Source of the DNA: Clostridia bacterium
GTDB taxonomy: Bacteria > Bacillota_A > Clostridia > Christensenellales > Borkfalkiaceae
DNA: 7,480 bases
Assembly: GCA_017504735.1 (NCBI GenBank)
Contig: JAFVQP010000088.1
Location: forward strand, 1-7,480
Reading direction: 5' to 3'
The first letter of the stretch is position 1, and each line of letters begins with the position of its first letter. This document shows, piece by piece, positions 1,293-7,480 of this stretch. Below the pieces are notes generated by a model, which saw nothing but the letters and a program-made list of their open reading frames with translations, was not told the origin of the DNA and made no database searches. A program made the translations under genes and the position numbers.

Positions 1293-1349
1293 ATTATGCC
1301 TCAATAAACCAAGTAAACTTGTCCAGTTCCACACGCAAAAATCGCCGTC

Positions 1350-1364
1350 AACGCATACCTGCCC
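1350..1364 (-). repeat. Iterated 15-nt word, copy D (intergenic, upstream of rsmD)
   Basis: Minus-strand GGGCAGGTATGCGTT, starting 3 nt after the TAA stop of the membrane-protein gene. With the two following bases it is identical over 17 nt (1364-1348, GGGCAGGTATGCGTTGA) to the copy in the dnaG-rpoD spacer. It lies in the 75-nt gap before rsmD. It has no obvious -10 box at the proper distance, so it does not read as a promoter element. No known motif is recognised. Confidence 0.8.
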
Positions 1365-1367
1365 ATC

Positions 1368-2102
1368 TTATTTATGCTTTTTAGGCTTCGTACCAGGCAA
1401 GCCGCCGTAATTGATTTTCTTCACCTTACTTTCCTCAGCTTCCGCTGCACGCTGTGCAATTACTTGTTCGCGTAAGCGTTTATTTCTACGTGCATATGCG
1501 CCTGCAATATAGAAAGCGCCCGACACCGCAATAGGAATTAAAGCAAATACACAAGATACAAAATAGCTAATGGCTACCCCTGTCGCATTCATCAGATACA
1601 AAGGTACAACCGACCAACCCGTCAATAAAAAGCTAAGAAGCAATATCACCGCAAGTCCGCCTTTTACGTCTTGGCTGTCAATTTTTGCCTGATTGCAACC
1701 AAGCAAAATCCCAAACACAATGGTCAATACCGCCGTAAATGCACCAACGACAAAGCCTTTCCATACGCGATATTCTTTTACTTCTTTATGGGTAGACATC
1801 TTATATCCACCATCAAACTGCGCCTCTGACATACGCTTCACGTTGCCTGATACAAGCATTTCATACTGAGTACCGCCCTGTGCCCAAGCCAATAATGCGT
1901 TGTATGCCGCACCGCCAACAATACATACCACTGCCCAAGCGACTTCCTTTCCCGTCCAGTTCAATTCTTCTTTGACCGTCAGCATCAACAAAATTGTGCC
2001 TGCACAACAATACATCAGTGTAGAAGGCAATGAACTTTTCAACAGCTCCCATACGCTTCTACCAAATTTTTTTAAGTTCTTTTTTATTGCTTTTGTATCC
2101 AT
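1368..2102 (-). CDS. Unidentified multi-pass membrane protein with basic C-terminal tail
   Basis: I do not recognise this 244-residue protein. It has a basic N-terminus (MDTKAIKKNLKKFGR), then five predicted hydrophobic segments at about 26-43, 53-74, 114-135, 148-170 and 176-203. An approximately 40-residue polar loop between helices 2 and 3 contains QFDGGYKMSTHKEVKEYRVWKG. The C-terminus (205-244) is highly charged and ends in a Lys-rich PGTKPKKHK. With positive ends and an odd number of helices, topology by the positive-inside rule is ambiguous. No enzymatic, transporter or receptor motif is visible. It sits between 5-FCL (31-nt gap) and rsmD (75-nt gap), both housekeeping genes. The ATG at 2102 lacks a normal SD: the only G-run (GGGG) is 11 nt upstream, in the loop of a weak hairpin. 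A TATAAC hexamer ends 5 nt before the ATG. It is clearly coding (long, periodic hydrophobicity), but its function is unknown. Confidence 0.8.
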   Translation of the reverse strand: MDTKAIKKNLKKFGRSVWELLKSSLPSTLMYCCAGTILLMLTVKEELNWTGKEVAWAVVCIVGGAAYNALLAWAQGGTQYEMLVSGNVKRMSEAQFDGGYKMSTHKEVKEYRVWKGFVVGAFTAVLTIVFGILLGCNQAKIDSQDVKGGLAVILLLSFLLTGWSVVPLYLMNATGVAISYFVSCVFALIPIAVSGAFYIAGAYARRNKRLREQVIAQRAAEAEESKVKKINYGGLPGTKPKKHK

Positions 2103-2108
2103 AATTCG

Positions 2109-2114
2109 TTATAC
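2109..2114 (-). promoter_or_regulatory. Candidate -10 hexamer TATAAC, 5 nt before membrane-protein start
   Basis: TATAAC matches the sigma-A -10 consensus at five of six positions, with a 5-nt spacer (GAATT) to the ATG at 2102. No credible -35 hexamer sits 16-18 nt upstream. The same arrangement occurs before alr, and both genes lack a usable SD, so an internal promoter giving a nearly leaderless mRNA is possible. A short inverted repeat (ATTCG / CGAAT, 2104-2108 and 2117-2121) brackets the hexamer. Confidence 0.3.
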
Positions 2115-2133
2115 CCCGAATATTTTTCTTATG

Positions 2134-2730
2134 TTATATTTGTATAATTTCTTCATCCGTCACAACAACGGATACCTTTTCGTCCCACGGCTCCGTCGGC
2201 ACTTCGTTGACTATTTGAAAGCTATATCCAAAAGCCACACGCCTTGCTGTAGATTTTTTCAAAAATCGATCGTAATAACCGCCGCCGTAACCCAAACGAT
2301 TGCCTTGCTTGTCCGCCGCTAAAAAGGGAATTACTGCAATATCTATCTCCCCTTCATGCTTTTCACCAACAGGTTCGCGTATGCCATAATCGGAAAGGGT
2401 GAAATCTTCACCGTACTCCACAGCGACCATTTCCCCATTTTCAATACGCGGACAACACACCCTATGTCCATCTAAAAGTAGGCGCTCTATCAAACCATCC
2501 GTAGGAGCCTCGCGGAAAAACGACAAGTAGATAAAAAATGTTAAACGCATACCTGGGTATGGCATTTCGCCAAAAACAGCCTGGTAAAAATGCTCTATCA
2601 GCCGTTCCTCTTTCACGTCGCGATTGGTATTTTCCATCCGCTTATTTTTCATATATGTGCGCAAACGCATTTTCTTCTCTTTTTGCGTGACCGTCACGTT
2701 TTCGTCAACGAAAGATAGTTTCCTCGTCAT
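2134..2730 (-). CDS. 5-formyltetrahydrofolate cyclo-ligase
   Basis: 5-FCL (MTHFS, YgfA/YqgN family) converts 5-formyl-THF to 5,10-methenyl-THF with ATP hydrolysis, returning the stored folate form to one-carbon metabolism. The 198-residue protein shows the N-terminal basic helix KEKKMRLRTYMKNKR (17-31), RVCCPRIENGEMVAVEY (90-106), YGIREP (115-120), IAVIPFLAADKQGNRLGYGG (131-150) and GYYDRFL (151-157), then FGYSFQIVNEVPTEPWDEKV (167-186) and TDEEI near the end. These are the ATP- and folate-binding blocks in family order. I chose the ATG at 2730 because GGAG sits 7 nt upstream; the gene then overlaps the alr end by 26 nt. A start at M21 (2670) would give 178 residues, closer to many homologues, but has only a weak SD (AGAGAAG). 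Family identity is certain; the start is not. Confidence 0.92.
   Translation of the reverse strand: MTRKLSFVDENVTVTQKEKKMRLRTYMKNKRMENTNRDVKEERLIEHFYQAVFGEMPYPGMRLTFFIYLSFFREAPTDGLIERLLLDGHRVCCPRIENGEMVAVEYGEDFTLSDYGIREPVGEKHEGEIDIAVIPFLAADKQGNRLGYGGGYYDRFLKKSTARRVAFGYSFQIVNEVPTEPWDEKVSVVVTDEEIIQI
2544..2555 (-). repeat. Iterated word, copy C (12-nt core, inside 5-FCL gene)
   Basis: Minus-strand CAGGTATGCGTT, identical over 12 nt to the 3' part of the 15-nt word found three other times. The preceding bases are CC rather than GGG, which creates a dyad, CATACC-CA-GGTATG, overlapping the core (2548-2561). It encodes the PGMRL stretch at residues 59-63, between the N-terminal helix and the first core strand. 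Confidence 0.6.
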
Positions 2731-3790
2731 AAATCAACTCCGCACGGCGGGTTGCCGCACACAATACTTCATAAGTAATCGTCCCAACCGCCTTTGCAAT
2801 TTTTTCCGCATCCGTTAGAACGGGCAACCAAGCCCCATACTTTAAATCACCAAACCGAATACACGCATCCATACAAAGATTGTTCGCATGTTCCTGCCAG
2901 TTTTCAAGTCCGTTTTTTTGTTGCCGTAAAAAACCATCGGCATACCCCACACGACAAACAGATAGCCGATCTATTTCCCGTCCGTCTGTTTCTTCGCCGT
3001 ACCCAAAGCCGCCAAAAACATATTTTCTTCTAGCAACAACTTTTGCAAAGACCGTCATCCCTTTTTGCAGGTGTAAATCTTGAACCAGCTCCGTAGATAC
3101 GCCCGTTTCCACATTTGCTTCACAAGGCAAGTAGCCATACAAGCCAAGCCCCACCCGCACCATATCAAACGTATACGCTTCCCCTAGCATTGCCCCATAA
3201 GAAGCACCCAGGTGTGCGATGAACGTCGAAAAGTACCTTTTCCCGACGGCAATCATCCGCATAAACGTTTGTCTTTGCTTCTCAGCGCAAGACAGGGTAC
3301 ACGCATATAAATGAGAATATATCCCCGTTACGTGCACATAAGGATTTTTCTGCAACAGCTTGCACACTTTCCCAAGCGTTTGGACGTTCATGCCATATCG
3401 GTTCATGCCTGTATTTACTTTCAAATGTACGTTTATGGGCAAACGGTATTCTTCACAAACCTTGCAAAGCAGGCGCGCCGTTTTCAGCGTATCCACGCTA
3501 GCAGTAAAGCCATTCACCGCCAAAGCATATCCCTCTTCCGCTGTCGTCGGAGGGGTAAAAACGAGAATTTCCTTACCGCAAGCCGCCACGCGAATGGCGA
3601 TAGCCTCTTCTATCAATGCAACAGCAAAACAATCCGCTACACCGCTTAAAGCCGCCGTCACCGCCTCCGCGCCGTGACCATAAGCATTCGCCTTCACCAC
3701 AGCGCAAAGCCGTTTACCCGTCAATGCCGAAAATCGCTCGGCATTTTTCACAATATTGTCTAAATGAATAATCGCTTTTACCTTCTGCAT
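2705..3790 (-). CDS. alr: Alanine racemase (PLP-dependent)
   Basis: Alr interconverts L- and D-alanine in the cytoplasm and supplies D-Ala for peptidoglycan. The 361-residue protein has the PLP-binding AVVKANAYGHG (30-40, Schiff-base Lys33), HLKVNTGMNRYGM (122-134; Lys124 and Arg131 match the carbamylated Lys and substrate-contacting Arg of the family), H159, the phosphate-binding HLGASYGA (193-200), DMVRVGLGLYG (209-219, Arg212 under the pyridine nitrogen), the catalytic tyrosine in VGYADGF (281-287, Tyr283), NNLCMDACI (303-311) and the GTITYEVLC signature (336-344). All expected catalytic residues are present. The barrel motif more often reads H-xx-NS; here the Asn is Ala. The ATG at 3790 is the earliest possible start, since TAG precedes it in frame. 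There is no SD; a TATAAT ends 5 nt upstream. The gene starts 36 nt after the zinc-ribbon gene and overlaps 5-FCL at its end. Confidence 0.95.
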   Translation of the reverse strand: MQKVKAIIHLDNIVKNAERFSALTGKRLCAVVKANAYGHGAEAVTAALSGVADCFAVALIEEAIAIRVAACGKEILVFTPPTTAEEGYALAVNGFTASVDTLKTARLLCKVCEEYRLPINVHLKVNTGMNRYGMNVQTLGKVCKLLQKNPYVHVTGIYSHLYACTLSCAEKQRQTFMRMIAVGKRYFSTFIAHLGASYGAMLGEAYTFDMVRVGLGLYGYLPCEANVETGVSTELVQDLHLQKGMTVFAKVVARRKYVFGGFGYGEETDGREIDRLSVCRVGYADGFLRQQKNGLENWQEHANNLCMDACIRFGDLKYGAWLPVLTDAEKIAKAVGTITYEVLCAATRRAELIYDEETIFR

Positions 3791-3806
3791 TCTACATTAT
3801 ATGCAG
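3785..3806 (-). promoter_or_regulatory. Candidate alr promoter with dyad spanning the -10 box and start codon
   Basis: On the minus strand a perfect -10 hexamer TATAAT (3801-3796) is followed by GTAGA and then the alr ATG (3790). A perfect inverted repeat, CTGCAT-N10-ATGCAG, occupies 3806-3785, so one arm overlaps the 5' edge of the -10 box and the other is the ATGCAG that starts alr. There is no SD. Transcription from this hexamer would begin at or next to the A of ATG, giving a leaderless mRNA. The -35 region is poor: at 17-18 nt spacing only three of six bases match TTGACA. The dyad could be an operator or a start-codon-masking hairpin. All of this is inferred from sequence alone. Confidence 0.4.
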
Positions 3807-3826
3807 TAGGGGTAATTTTTGCTACT

Positions 3827-4522
3827 TTATTTACTGAAAATAATTCTATGACAGTTATCACATTCGATACTTGCGCCGCCGGTCAATTTATTTCTTGCCG
3901 CAAGAGGCGGTTCCATACTACAGAAAGGACATCTATTACCCACCATCTCACCAACGACGGGGAAAATTTTCTCCTTTCGCTTCGTGCGATAAATTTCCAG
4001 CATTTCCGCAGGCACATCCTTTTCAATTTTGGCAAGAGCTGATTCCAGTTCCTTCTTCTCAGGTTCACGCGCCGCTTTTACCGCCTTGTATTTTTCCGTT
4101 GCATCCGCATATTGTTTCTGTGCGGAAAGCACCTGCTTCTTCAATTTTTTATATTCTTCATCGGTGGCGTTGATATTTGCTGTCAAAGCTGCAAGGTCAG
4201 CCTTCAACTTTTTAAGCTGCTCCGCAAGCGCCTGCGCCTTCTTTTTATAGAATGCGATATCCGCGCCGCCCGTTACCAACTCGTCCAAATTTTCAAAATC
4301 ATTCAAAGATTCTTCCGCGTGCGTATATTTTTGTGTGAGCTCCATCGCTTCCGCCTGCAACGCCGCCGCTTTTACCTCCAACGCATCCAACTTTTCAGGG
4401 GCTGCTTCAAGGAATTTTTTAAACTTAACGTATTCCTTTCTCTCCTCGCAACCTGCAATTTCGCGTTCCAGCTTATAAAGCTTTGCATCCGTTTCTTGAT
4501 ACTGTAAAATAGCTTGTAACAT
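3827..4522 (-). CDS. Coiled-coil C4 zinc-ribbon protein (COG1579 family)
   Basis: The 231-residue protein consists of a long, Lys/Glu/Ala-rich alpha-helical region (about 1-180) with heptad-like coiled-coil character. A C-terminal C4 zinc ribbon follows: GNRCPFCSMEPPLAARNKL (about 195-213) and IECDNCHRIIF (219-229), with Cys198, Cys201, Cys221 and Cys224 as zinc ligands. This CPxC-M-P...CxxCxRIx(F/Y) pattern is that of the zf-RING_7/COG1579 proteins, described only as possible nucleic-acid-binding or scaffold proteins; the precise role is unknown. The ATG at 4522 is chosen over an upstream in-frame ATG at 4573 because the homologue-like N-terminus (LQAILQYQETDAKLYKLE) begins here and GGGAG lies 7 nt upstream; the longer form would start inside the Nif3 gene. 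It follows the Nif3 gene by 17 nt, a pairing common in Firmicutes. Confidence 0.88.
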   Translation of the reverse strand: MLQAILQYQETDAKLYKLEREIAGCEERKEYVKFKKFLEAAPEKLDALEVKAAALQAEAMELTQKYTHAEESLNDFENLDELVTGGADIAFYKKKAQALAEQLKKLKADLAALTANINATDEEYKKLKKQVLSAQKQYADATEKYKAVKAAREPEKKELESALAKIEKDVPAEMLEIYRTKRKEKIFPVVGEMVGNRCPFCSMEPPLAARNKLTGGASIECDNCHRIIFSK

Positions 4523-4539
4523 AATATATCTCCCTCCCG

Positions 4540-5358
4540 TTAAAACAGTTTGTCTTCCGTGTGATAAACACAAGGAATTTCCAACCGCTCACGGATTTTT
4601 TTATAATATTTTTCAAAACCGTATTGTTCGGACGCATAATGCGTCAAGACAATTACGGACATACCCGATTCCACCAATAATTGTATAAGATGATGTTTGA
4701 AATCGGAAGAAATCATCACCTGCGCGCCCATTTCTTTTGCGTAAAGAATAGAACGTTCATCTGCGCCTGCGCCACAAAAACTAGCAATACGCGTAATTGT
4801 TCCGTCTAGATTGCCGTATGCAAAGACGTTTTGAGTGGTAAAAACCTTCTTGATGCCGTCCGCAAGCGACCGCAAAGATATGCCTTTTACATCATATACT
4901 CGACCGTATCCGCCATCTTCCACGGGGTGCTGAATTGCAACTGAACGCATACCTGCCCCCTCCGTTTCTCCTGCCGCAAGCAAAATTCCTTCCATCAAGC
5001 TTTCATCAATACCGCCCTTTGCAACGTCCAAATTTAAGTGCATGGAAATCACCGATATACCCGCCTGGATGCATTTTACCAACTTTTCACCAAGCAACGT
5101 CTTATCACTAAGGCAAATGTGATCAATTTTTCCATAGATAACTGGATGGTGTGTAATAATTAAATTTGCACCGCAAGTCAACGCCTTATCAATAGCCGCA
5201 TTGGTCAAGTCCAAAGTAAACACAATCCCCGTCACTTCCTCGCAAGCCTCTACCAACAAACCGCTGTTATCATACGCGCCCGCCGTGCGACAATATTCAT
5301 CACTTAAACGCTTGGGTGCAATTTCATCTGCTATCTTATAAACTTCACTTAATTTCAC
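4540..5358 (-). CDS. Nif3-like dinuclear metal-centre protein (YqfO/YbgI family)
   Basis: The Nif3 family forms toroidal hexamers with a dinuclear metal site in each subunit. The biological role is unsettled; GTP cyclohydrolase-like and hydrolase activities have been proposed for members. The 272-residue protein shows AGAYDNSGLLVE (26-37), LIITHHPVIYG (66-76, metal-binding histidines), ISVISMHLNLDVAKGG (100-115, His107 and Asp111), ISSDFKHH (216-223) and VLTHYASEQYGFEKY (237-251), which carries the second-half metal ligands His and Glu. It is of the short form, without the roughly 100-residue PII-like insert seen in B. subtilis YqfO. It starts with GTG at 5358, overlapping the trmK end by 14 nt, and AAGGAG lies 9 nt upstream. 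The trmK-nif3 pairing is characteristic of Firmicutes. One copy of the 15-nt iterated word encodes EGAGMRS at about residues 134-140, in a segment that varies in length across the family. Confidence 0.92.
   Translation of the reverse strand: MKLSEVYKIADEIAPKRLSDEYCRTAGAYDNSGLLVEACEEVTGIVFTLDLTNAAIDKALTCGANLIITHHPVIYGKIDHICLSDKTLLGEKLVKCIQAGISVISMHLNLDVAKGGIDESLMEGILLAAGETEGAGMRSVAIQHPVEDGGYGRVYDVKGISLRSLADGIKKVFTTQNVFAYGNLDGTITRIASFCGAGADERSILYAKEMGAQVMISSDFKHHLIQLLVESGMSVIVLTHYASEQYGFEKYYKKIRERLEIPCVYHTEDKLF
4944..4958 (-). repeat. Iterated 15-nt word, copy B (inside Nif3-family gene)
   Basis: Minus-strand GGGCAGGTATGCGTT, an exact 15-nt match to the intergenic copies at 7174-7160 and 1364-1350. 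Here it is translated as part of GAGMRS. The bases on either side are unrelated to those flanking the other copies (ACGGAGG before, CAGTTGC after). Confidence 0.8.
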
Positions 5359-6037
5359 CGCTCAACACTCCTTCTAAACGAGCCTTTCTATTCAGCAAAT
5401 CTTCCTTGCTTGCGTCTTGTAAGTTTGGCTGCGCCAAATACCTATCAATCCCTGACAACAGCTTTCTGATTCTCGCTGTAAAAGCATCTGGAAAAGTTTT
5501 TAAATTATCTCTGCCAAACTCGTATTCCGCATCCGTATAAGGGGTTTCATCAAATACCTGCTCCCCTTCTTCGCGTCTTCCACCGACAATCACATCGTAA
5601 AATTTTACGTCTTGGAAGGTGTAATCCTTTTCAATATATCCACCATTTTCAAGAATATACCGACGCAATTTTTCTGCATCGTGCATCGGTTGAAAGACAA
5701 AGTATTTAGGCATAAAACCATGTTTCTCATTCGACAAAATGGATACAATTTCACTGCCGCCCATGCCAGCAATCAACACTTCGTCCACGTCACTAGACAC
5801 ACCGAAAAAGCCGTCACCCAACACGGAAACCGCCTTACCTTGTCGAATGTAAGGCGCAAGTAAGGTTTCCGCTTTTGCAAGACTCCCCTTGCTCACGTCG
5901 GACAAAATTGCCTTTTCGCACAATCCATTTTTGAGCATATATTCCGAGCAATAGCCATGGTCGCACCCCACATCAGCAAAGGTATCCACCTTTTTCAGCA
6001 ACGAACACAGCGTATCAATCCTCTTTCCGTAAGCCAT
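5345..6037 (-). CDS. trmK: tRNA (adenine22-N1)-methyltransferase TrmK
   Basis: TrmK (YqfN) places m1A at position 22 in the D-arm/core of several tRNAs, using S-adenosylmethionine. The 230-residue protein has the expected two-part build. First comes an N-terminal Rossmann methyltransferase domain with FADVGCDHGY (20-29, SAM-binding loop), AILSDVSKGSL (43-53, acidic ribose-binding position), GDGF (74-77), VLIAGMGG (87-94) and FQPMHDAEKLRRYI (115-128). A C-terminal helical tail follows, from about 165, with DNLKTFPDAFTARIRKLLSG and a Leu/Lys/Glu-rich helix. The ATG at 6037 overlaps the rpoD stop in a TAATG junction, so translation is probably coupled to that of sigma-A. In B. subtilis the orthologue likewise lies downstream of sigA and next to the nif3 homologue. 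Confidence 0.93.
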   Translation of the reverse strand: MAYGKRIDTLCSLLKKVDTFADVGCDHGYCSEYMLKNGLCEKAILSDVSKGSLAKAETLLAPYIRQGKAVSVLGDGFFGVSSDVDEVLIAGMGGSEIVSILSNEKHGFMPKYFVFQPMHDAEKLRRYILENGGYIEKDYTFQDVKFYDVIVGGRREEGEQVFDETPYTDAEYEFGRDNLKTFPDAFTARIRKLLSGIDRYLAQPNLQDASKEDLLNRKARLEGVLSGEIK

Positions 6038-7092
6038 TATTCGAGGAAATCTTTCAATTTTTTACTACGCGAAGGGTGACGAAGCTTTCTCAAAGCTTTC
6101 GCTTCGATCTGACGGATACGTTCACGGGTAACGTTAAATTCTTTGCCTACTTCTTCCAAGGTTCTAGGCTTACCATCGTCAATACCGTAACGCAAACGAA
6201 GCACCTTTTCTTCACGAGGGGTCAAGGTATCCAACACGCCGAGAAGCTGCTCTTTCAACATCGTCGTCGCCACCGAATCGCTAGGGGTCATCGTCTTTTC
6301 ATCTTCGATGAAATCGCCAAGATGGCTATCTTCTTCCTCACCGATTGGCGTTTCCAAGGATACGGGATCTTGTGCGATTTTTTGAATTTCGCGTACACGA
6401 TCTTCCGTAACACCCATTTTTTCCGCAATTTCTTCAGGGGTCGGTTCACGGCCAAGTTCCTGCAACAATACACGTTGTACGCGCGTCAGCTTATTAATCG
6501 TTTCCACCATATGCACGGGAATACGAATGGTACGTGCTTGATCCGCAATGGCACGAGTAATCGACTGACGAATCCACCAAGTCGCATAGGTAGAGAACTT
6601 GAAACCCTTTTGGTAGTCAAACTTTTCTACCGCCTTCATAAGACCAAGGTTCCCTTCCTGAATCAAATCAAGGAAAAGCATCCCGCGCCCTACGTAACGC
6701 TTTGCAATCGAAACAACCAAACGCAAGTTTGCTTCGGAAAGACGTTTTTTCGCCGCAACGTCATCCTCTTGCATGCGTTTTGCAAGCTCTACCTCTTCAT
6801 CCGCAGAAAGCAAAGGCACACGGCCGATGTCCTTCAAATACATTTTTACAGGGTCGTCCAAACCAATATCAGACAATGCCTGCTCGAACAATTCGCGGTC
6901 GCGTTGTTCTTCGTCCACGATTTGAATCCCTGCTTCGTTTAAGGATTTGTAGATATAATCAATCTGTGTAGGATTGGTATCATACTTTTCCATAATGTCG
7001 CAAAGTTGGTTGGTGGTGATGCTGCCTTTCTTGCCGTAATTATCAACAATACTAGCAAGAACTTCATTGAGTTTTTGTTCGGATATACTCAT
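6037..7092 (-). CDS. rpoD: Primary (housekeeping) sigma factor RpoD/SigA
   Basis: The main sigma-70 subunit directs RNA polymerase to -10/-35 promoters. The 351 residues cover all sigma regions. Region 1.1-like helices lie at 5-60, and region 1.2 at 79-112 ([22 protein letters not shown]). Region 2 is at about 118-190, with [35 protein letters not shown] and the -10-reading [20 protein letters not shown] (166-185). Region 3 is at 191-268, with the sigma finger near SHLGDFIED. Region 4 is at 280-345, with the -35 helix-turn-helix [20 protein letters not shown] (311-330). The length is slightly below that of many Firmicutes SigA proteins, mainly in region 1.1; the long Gram-negative non-conserved insert is absent. 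The start at 7092 is fixed by GGAGG, 7 nt upstream. It follows dnaG by 97 nt, as in the classical rpsU/dnaG/rpoD macromolecular synthesis arrangement. Confidence 0.97.
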
Positions 7093-7113
7093 TTTTTATC
7101 CTCCGTTAATACC

Positions 7114-7129
7114 AAACAGTTTTCTGTTT
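7114..7129 (-). other. Small hairpin ahead of the rpoD SD
   Basis: AAACAG-AAAA-CTGTTT on the minus strand is a perfect 6-bp stem with a four-base loop, 9 nt before the GGAGG of rpoD, inside an A-rich leader. It has only two GC pairs and no downstream T-run in the reading direction, so it is not a terminator for dnaG. It might mark an RNA-processing or stability site between dnaG and rpoD, but it is weak and may be chance. Confidence 0.3.
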
Positions 7130-7159
7130 TTCCCTTTTTTTATTTTTTCTTTTAGTTTC

Positions 7160-7174
7160 AACGCATACCTGCCC
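7160..7174 (-). repeat. Iterated 15-nt word, copy A (dnaG-rpoD spacer)
   Basis: Minus-strand GGGCAGGTATGCGTT, beginning 15 nt after the dnaG stop in the 97-nt dnaG-rpoD spacer. With the next two bases (GA) it is identical over 17 nt to the copy before rsmD. The rest of the spacer is A-rich leader, the small hairpin and the rpoD SD; I see no other gene in it. Confidence 0.8.
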
Positions 7175-7189
7175 GCTTCATTTTGGGTT

Positions 7190-7480
7190 TTATGCTTTCT
7201 TAAGCGCATTGCGCTTTTGTACACATTCGCTCAATTTTTTTGCTATCTCTTTACGTTCGGTTTCTTCCGTTGCCTTCACGTAGTCTTGATTCAGCTGTGC
7301 AATTTCTTCCTCGATTGCTTCCTTCCGCAAGGTCTTTAAGCTATCGTTAAAGAACCTTTCCGCAATTTCACCTACCAGCTTATCACCGTAGTTCAAATCT
7401 AAAATCGCATTAAATTCTGCACAATTTTCATCCAACAATTCAAAAAGTTCACTCGGTCGAATCCGTTCGCCCTTCTCCAC
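7190..7480 (-). CDS. dnaG: DNA primase DnaG, C-terminal fragment (runs off right edge)
   Basis: DnaG synthesises the RNA primers for replication. Only the last 97 or so codons are present, and the frame is open to the window edge; the true start lies outside. The visible part is all-helical: ERIRPSELFELLDENCAEFNAILDLNY, then AERFFNDSLKTLRKEAIEEEIAQLNQDYVKATEETERKEIAKKLSECVQKRNAL, ending in KKA. This matches the C-terminal helicase-interaction domain of Firmicutes primases, in particular the closing pattern of a long helix (R-x-E-x-I-E-E-E-I-x-x-L) followed by a second charged helix near the stop. The catalytic zinc and TOPRIM domains are not in the window, so the call rests on this weakly conserved tail plus position directly upstream of rpoD, where dnaG is expected. 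Confidence 0.82.
   Translation of the reverse strand: MEKGERIRPSELFELLDENCAEFNAILDLNYGDKLVGEIAERFFNDSLKTLRKEAIEEEIAQLNQDYVKATEETERKEIAKKLSECVQKRNALKKA

Follow-up and report, generated by a model that had tools for sequence, protein, structure and literature searches.

The question raised by this locus is why one 15-nt word recurs in a single orientation within a window of 7,480 nucleotides, the window being the whole stretch of DNA that was analyzed. The three exact copies and the 12-base partial copy named in the initial annotation were all recovered on the minus strand (Table 1). When up to three mismatches to the word were allowed, four matches were found, compared with a mean of 0.15 in 200 shuffled sequences, none of which reached four. 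That the reverse orientation lacks copies is true of exact matches, but a matrix built from relatives finds a site on the plus strand (site 3). At a threshold of 8 bits this matrix yields six sites in the window, which include site 3 and, on the minus strand, a further one (site 5).

Table 1. Word sites of the window, with their surroundings and their counterparts in relatives. Coordinates are window positions except in the last column.
Site	Core (strand)	Score (bits)	Dyad near	Predicted arms	Match to 15-nt word	Location	Counterparts
1	1348-1364 (-)	39.4	1360	~1240-1480	exact, 1350-1364	between membrane-protein gene 1368-2102 and next gene 747-1334	none at expected place in G001 (L001)
2	2542-2558 (-)	21.0	2554		12 of 15 bases, 2544-2555	within gene 2134-2730	by offset, L001 at 12787
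3	3206-3222 (+)	22.6	3210			within alanine racemase gene 2705-3790	by offset, L001 at 12168
4	4942-4958 (-)	37.1	4954	~4834-5074	exact, 4944-4958	within DUF34/NIF3 gene 4540-5358	aligned, G001 and G003; lost in G002
5	5547-5563 (-)	22.9	5559			within trmK gene 5345-6037	by offset, L001 and L003 at 9796
6	7158-7174 (-)	40.1	7170	~7050-7290	exact, 7160-7174	spacer between sigma-70 gene 6037-7092 and gene 7190-7480, presumably the end of dnaG	by offset, L001 at 8194, L003 at 8193

The suspected genome-wide distribution of the word was borne out. In G001, a relative of the host of the window, it is the top over-represented 12-mer: stretches chosen for hits, 331 kb in all, contain 49 copies where 0.03 would be expected. 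Across whole genomes the 12-mer is present on both strands, with 50 and 38 copies in G001 and 23 and 14 in G003. At least five copies were present in 23 of 201 genomes of the family, and the word is confined to one clade. Dialects and near matches occur among the genomes. The main word class is not palindromic, a second class of G001 is, and second-class words in G005 were close to the control (18 versus 11). Sites are conserved at orthologous positions in some species pairs and not in others (0/10 for G005 and G052, 0/9 for G002 and G005). A phage origin was rejected: among 50 viral stretches with the 15-mer, the extended motif, judged by eye, was seen only in L047. Motif refinement by EM was set aside because of drift, which affected G002, G005 and, in part, G052. 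No report of this word, nor of an uptake sequence in Clostridia, was found in the open-licence literature.

The word is part of a larger structure. The core comprises 17-20 bp and ~27 bits and contains a dyad (r 0.82). Around 246 sites the A/T content rises and falls every 11.5 bp, its phase locked to that of the word, for ~130 bp in each direction. The amplitude was 0.086/0.089, compared with 0.008/0.016 at random positions, and in a jitter null of 2000 the maximum was 0.031 against an observed 0.080/0.076. The phasing was repeated in G003 (30 sites) and in four more genomes (14 sites), was weak in G005 (mean z 0.86), and is visible in the six sites of the window when pooled (0.090 and 0.095, noise 0.043). 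A general tendency of the genomes to phasing was rejected as its cause: loci phased at 11.55 bp were not consistently more frequent than those phased at other periods. Only 10 pairs of sites lie less than 240 bp apart where 42.5 were expected, which is below all 1000 simulations; this test excludes L001, which overlaps part of contig C66 of G001. The short-range gap is visible with the distance test only. By coefficient of variation no regular spacing was found in nine contigs, and two of them were more clustered than random. Judged from these sequence patterns, the word is likely to be the core of a ~250-bp site that is wrapped by a protein, and an A/T period above 10.5 bp would imply a right-handed wrap. 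Right-handed wrapping of the Lrp type, as by LrpC, was considered and rejected; PF01037 is present in 11 of 13 word genomes searched and absent from G001 and G116.

Copies are found within genes and in spacers, in both orientations. Terminator-like inverted pairs occur, in five cases with a dyad-to-dyad distance of 22 bp, and some words form hairpin arms. These hairpins, together with a 2.8-3.8 fold enrichment of words in spacers, would suit a global transcription regulator or a terminator element whose sites are numerous by chance. However, of 290 sites, 152 are embedded deeply within one gene, on either strand, and their arms are equally strong. Such an element is highly improbable.

The sites are unevenly placed along the chromosome. 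The first 140 kb of contig C1 of G052, near the mapped terminus, harbor one of 41 sites, and this desert covers core genes. Around tex, 95 kb from four genomes were free of sites, whereas ~125 kb around comEC in eight genomes contained 29; that tex lies near the terminus is, for most genomes, extrapolated from G005 and G052. At the G005 terminus, no clear desert was seen with second-class words. The gene dnaA failed as an origin marker; its contig in G116 has a constant skew. The initial annotation had named chromosome-organizing words as its second class of explanation, and this class fits better than DNA uptake, but not in the form of a polar word like KOPS, given the 17-20 bp core and the scarcity near the G052 terminus. 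A polar word was also rejected on strand bias: the preference for the G-rich strand (54/73 and 43/56) may be explained by G-rich composition.

Alternatively, the words could be strong DNA-gyrase sites, with the arms wrapped on the GyrA C-terminal domains and the word in the gate, which would set supercoiling along the chromosome. The E. coli gyrase motif is symmetric about the point of cleavage, its central part being flanked on either side by DNA whose GC content is periodic, and the enzyme displays a gradient from origin to terminus (PMC6379681). Dyad, arms and terminus desert match this plan. The E. coli motif, however, spans 130 bp with a period of 10.75 bp and a degenerate centre, whereas the sites described here span ~250 bp, show an 11.5-bp period and have a core of ~27 bits. 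Moreover, gyrase is universal and the word limited to one clade, and GyrA of G052 and G005 looks ordinary. Gyrase sites are an unlikely explanation.

A DNA-uptake sequence, the reading favored by the initial annotation, found no support. No convincing machine of the type IV pilus kind was detected in 24 draft genomes: the N-methyl pilin domain PF07963 was found in none, and matches to the pilus/type II secretion ATPase family PF00437, present in 15 of 24, were all weak; one of them attained the cut-off only when combined with its neighbours. HHH_3 matches lay mostly in open frames of 615-805 aa, which we take to be Tex-like, or of 419-469 aa; two weak matches, from G006 and G144, have frames of 199 and 216 aa, respectively, which might be ComEA-sized. 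The failure to find pilin and pilus-ATPase genes in these 24 genomes speaks against DNA uptake, and a classical uptake sequence is not favored because this machinery is lacking. The word could still be a transfer signal kept by molecular drive, if DNA carrying it were preferentially moved without type IV pili and recombination spread it. ComEC is present in 24 of 24 genomes, and the placement of copies on either strand, within genes as well as between them, along with inverted pairs, dialects and near matches, agrees with such a signal, as in DUS and USS (PMC1852404, PMC2346458). However, ComEC is equally present in word-free genomes, the desert in G052 covers core genes, and arms of ~130 bp each way far exceed the AT tracts known from the USS of H. 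influenzae. To our knowledge, neither such arms nor scarcity near a terminus are features of uptake sequences. With no pilin or convincing pilus ATPase found in the 24 genomes either, a transfer signal is improbable. A search for such words in naturally competent Veillonella found none of at least 10 bp with at least 100 copies (PMC5397411).

The usual chromosome-sharing protein of this clade, a group of gut Clostridia, is ParB, which was surveyed in 80 genomes picked with their word counts already known. A derived ParB that has lost the CTP-binding box was found in 27 of them. GERR and ENLQR are absent in all 27 and present in the nine canonical proteins that were read. Of the marks of a ParABS system, the derived genomes show the GERRxRA box in 0/27, parA beside parB in 0/27 (loci of ~3-3.8 kb; 8/9 in canonical loci) and the exact parS pattern in 4/27, compared with 29/53 of the other genomes; parS-like sites persist singly and inside genes in 4/27. 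At least five words were present in 24 of the 27 derived-ParB genomes, but in none of the other 53. Derived-ParB genomes G002, G063 and G164 have only two to three exact 12-mers each, and G002 has a dialect. A word lies at most 120 bp upstream of the derived parB in 8/27; in five genomes, 2-15% of genes have a word so placed. The helix with which the derived ParB reads DNA has hardly changed, so the protein should still read parS. Its predicted model has a mean pLDDT of 83.4 and a pTM of 0.62. Derived and canonical ParBs split on one branch; the word and the ParB change may thus be one coincidence, and the ParB link comes from one clade.

The derived ParB also matches solved Noc structures and the Noc model TIGR04285 (121 bits). 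This match and the desert in G052 would be consistent with nucleoid occlusion, in which a Noc-like protein on the words blocks the division ring until the word-free terminus reaches midcell. Noc and SlmA sites are short palindromes under-represented in Ter, with ~70 sites for Noc and 24-52 for SlmA (PMC4726725). The match, however, falls short of the 315 cut-off and is not specific, since a higher score (202.6) was obtained by the canonical ParB of G151. The sites described here are far more numerous and carry phased arms, the main class is not palindromic, and the CTP box expected of a CTP-dependent reader of the ParB family is lost in 27/27. Nucleoid occlusion is quite improbable.

The co-occurrence of the word site with an altered ParB, without adjacent parA and mostly without parS, points to a chromosome-organizing site that is possibly read by ParB. 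We put the chances at about even that the word marks the core of a wrapped ~250-bp repeat which organizes or segregates the chromosome of this clade, with the altered ParB as the most likely candidate reader. A protein would wrap the site right-handedly around its core, the wrapped particle would act on chromosome layout or segregation, and the wrapped sites would have taken over from ParABS. A bolder version, which we regard as rather doubtful, is a holocentric-like chromosome, whose ParA-ParB-parS centromere was abandoned and CTP clamping lost, and in which hundreds of dispersed, right-handed ParB-wrapped sites compact and segregate all but the terminus. The main reading, if correct, would add a new mode of chromosome handling to those of bacteria. 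Replacement of ParABS by the site would illustrate how one centromere system can give way to another in a bacterium, and the site is predicted to offer a sequence-defined wrapped particle.

We know of no dispersed bacterial DNA signal that joins a long specific core, phased arms that total ~250 bp, a matching spacing gap and scarcity at a terminus. The DUS of Neisseria and the USS of Pasteurellaceae are alike in being genome-wide words in genes and spacers, in both orientations, with inverted pairs, dialects and A/T tracts by the core, but differ from the sites described here, for which no pilus genes were found and which have a specific core of 17-20 bp, phased arms of ~130 bp each way, a spacing gap and scarcity near a terminus. 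The gyrase motif shares dyad symmetry, periodic GC/AT arms and a bias from origin to terminus, whereas the present sites are longer (~250 versus 130 bp), have a longer period (11.5 versus 10.75 bp) and a strongly specific core, and are limited to a clade. Like Noc and SlmA sites they are dispersed and have a candidate reader of the ParB family, and they are scarce at the terminus in G052, though not clearly so in G005; unlike these, they are many more, carry long phased arms and have a candidate reader without a CTP box. With ParABS they share a ParB ortholog whose DNA-binding domain is intact, but the CTP box is lost, parA is not beside parB, parS is mostly gone, and the sites are dispersed instead of few.

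The 15-nt word described in the initial annotation occurs in the window as claimed, three times in full and once as its 12-base part (the 12-mer), always on the minus strand, and four matches were reached in none of 200 shuffles. Genome-wide counts were taken from relatives of the window that were found by searching with its NIF3-family protein. Draft genomes of three gut Clostridia (G001, from water deer caecum; G002; G003, from roe deer rectum) encode counterparts with 61-78% identity to this protein. G001 harbors 88 copies of CAGGTATGCGTT, G003 harbors 37 and G002 harbors 3; the reversed control yields 1, 0 and 2, respectively. At the family level 61 of 201 genomes contain a word match and 23 harbor at least five copies (our count); at the order level GGTAYGCGTTGAA was located in 35 of 396 genomes, with at least four copies only in G001, G005 and G039. 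Thus the word is spread over entire genomes within a single clade, and to this extent the initial guess of a genome-wide element was correct. In the stretches fetched from G001 (331 kb) and G116 (382 kb), which were chosen for hits, the 12-mer ranks first in over-representation among all 12-mers of the former (49 copies versus 0.03 expected) and second, behind an overlapping 12-mer, in the latter (20 versus 0.07). A matrix built from 129 sites with at most three mismatches comprises 33.6 bits, 27.3 of them in the core. Sites scoring 10 bits or more number 0, 2 and 0 in the word-poor genomes G028, G019 and G151 (400 kb together) and 0, 0 and 2 in the reversed control. Second-class words are the ACATGGTATGC type of G001 (14 copies; the opposite strand reads GGGCATACCATGT running into TGCGTTGA) and the CGGACATGGGT type of G116 (10 copies), and a dialect with GGGGGACGGTACG is present in G002.

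The 73 sites of G001 (at most three mismatches) are divided into 41 coding, 24 along and 17 against the gene strand, and 32 intergenic ones, in DNA that is 88% coding according to our own gene caller; the two word classes taken together are enriched 2.8-3.8 fold in spacers. The G-rich strand carries 54 of the 73 sites in G001 and 43 of 56 in G116. Comparing aligned coding positions between orthologs, we again found the word in 52 of 140 cases, with each pair counted from both sides and 19 further positions, which could not be aligned, outside this number. The word in the NIF3 gene is retained in the window, G001 and G003 and lost from G002. When positions are matched by offset, G001 has a counterpart to five of the six window sites, and the G003 stretch L003 has one to each of the three that it covers.

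Recurrence of the word at orthologous places in pairs of genomes
Genome pair	Word recurs/positions compared
G001-G116	20/28
G001-G052	18/26
G005-G116	4/10
G001-G002	6/21
G001-G005	2/18
G002-G116	2/16
G005-G052	0/10
G002-G005	0/9
G002-G052	0/2

When sites were aligned on the word, A/T content oscillated on both sides with a period of 11.5-11.6 bp. The amplitude of these arms was 0.086 and 0.089 for 246 sites, versus 0.008 and 0.016 at random positions, and 0.071 and 0.078 versus 0.036 and 0.023 in the smallest set (48 sites of G052 and G005). Random shifts of 248 sites by up to 12 bp gave at most 0.031 in 2000 nulls, compared to the observed 0.080 and 0.076. Measured from the dyad, the symmetry centre inside the core, the arm signal stays above the 99% null for about 139 bp to the left and 131 bp to the right. 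Their signal at 152 sites deep within genes, on either gene strand, at least equals that at 96 spacer sites, and arms of matching phase recur at 30 sites of G003 and 14 sites of four further genomes and also surround the second-class words. The six window sites show same-phase arms with weaker support (0.090 and 0.095 versus a noise of 0.043), and phasing in G005 on its own is weak (mean z 0.86, 15 sites). The arms are mirrored at core position 4.0-4.5 (r 0.82 and 0.81; joint fit 11.55 bp, centre 4.0), where, read by eye, the second-class palindrome of G001 is also centred. The site itself is established, and its wrapping, likely by a protein, is strongly suggested. By analogy with gyrase, a period above 10.5 bp would reflect a right-handed wrap.

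Spacing was analyzed for both word classes, with pairs less than 45 bp apart merged and the G001 stretch L001 left out. Only 10 neighbours lie within 240 bp, versus 42.5 expected and never fewer than 24 in 1000 simulations; 142 lie at 480-1080 bp, versus 77.7 expected and never more than 98. The deficit below 240 bp also occurs in single genomes (4 versus 21.8 in G001, 2 versus 12.2 in G116), and this gap roughly equals the two arms together in length. It is breached by five inverted pairs, whose dyads are separated by 22 bp, and by a few tandem pairs, of which three have a distance of 31 bp. The terminus was placed by the skew, which on contig C7 of G005 changes sign near 92 kb, from plus to minus; the stretch just past this switch is syntenic with the start of contig C1 of G052. 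The first 140 kb of the latter hold 1 of 41 sites, or, with second-class words added, the first 150 kb hold 8 of 63. This word-scarce stretch includes genes that we take to be groEL, tex, uvrC and mutS2, and most of its genes have an ortholog in G005. In G005 words are sparse everywhere (9 in 280 kb), and a wider count including second-class words revealed no clear desert. The surroundings of tex in G001, G169, G194 and G184, where it is assumed to lie near the terminus, contain no site in 95 kb, compared to about 11 expected by hand estimate; those of comEC in eight genomes contain 29 in 125 kb.

Components of the uptake apparatus that the initial annotation proposed to look for were searched in 24 genomes. 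ComEC is present in all 24 genomes and N-methyl pilins in none of them; PF00437 gave weak matches in 15, one exceeding the cut-off only when joined with its neighbours. HHH_3 matches fell mostly in long frames; the frames of two weak ones measure 199 and 216 aa.

Coordinates of ParB loci, parS-like sites, dnaA and other repeats
Feature	Location	Observation
Chromosomal derived ParB loci	L095:2187-3026; L255-L281	CTP box and N-terminal peptide lost, no adjacent parA
Single parS-like sites in four derived-ParB genomes	L285-L287; G116:C11:88553	Inside genes, presumably Fur-like in G001 and murE in G179 and G194; gene without assigned name in G116
dnaA	G116 C11:27538-28020	The surrounding contig shows constant GC skew; dnaA is therefore no marker of the skew switch in G116
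15-mer in IMG/VR contigs	L012:142-178; L042:3368-4062	Arranged as tandem pairs spaced by 22 bp; surroundings differ from those of the Clostridia sites
Distinct CGACAGAGATAAAATG-like repeated word	L002 (G002)	Four copies, several places in 20 kb
Short tandem families	L145, L150, L153 (G002)	Cores TACGTCTATGTA and CAAGATTATCTT; no relation to the word

ParB_N scored above the cut-off in all 11 word-poor genomes and in none of the 13 with words; of the latter, four gave a weak partial match. Among 80 genomes, a set chosen with word counts known and containing every genome with at least five words, the parB gene persists in 79 (matches to the G001 protein), and at least five words occur in 24 of the 27 genomes with a derived ParB, but in none of the 53 others. 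The derived proteins lack GERR, ENLQR, the glycine-rich N-terminal peptide and QPR and keep the helix-turn-helix; in three that were scanned HTH_ParB was strong and ParB_N missing or below the cut-off. All nine canonical ParBs that were read harbor GERR and ENLQR, and seven harbor the peptide and QPR, the other two being shortened by choice of start. A ParA Walker motif adjoins parB at 8 of 9 canonical loci, but at none of the 27 derived loci (about 3-3.8 kb each). The exact parS pattern occurs in 29 of the 53 other genomes versus 4 of the 27 derived ones, there in one copy each, within genes. At relaxed thresholds 8 of the 27 derived parB genes have a word at most 120 bp upstream, compared to 2-15% of genes in five genomes.

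As to function, we infer a role in chromosome layout, to which the spacing gap, the G052 desert and the decay of ParABS point. ParB is a candidate reader of the word and the weakest link, because its recognition helix is unchanged, four genomes retain parS-like sites and the derived and canonical forms are separated by one branch. The association of word and ParB therefore amounts to a single coincidence in evolution. The best alternative is that the word is read by gyrase instead.
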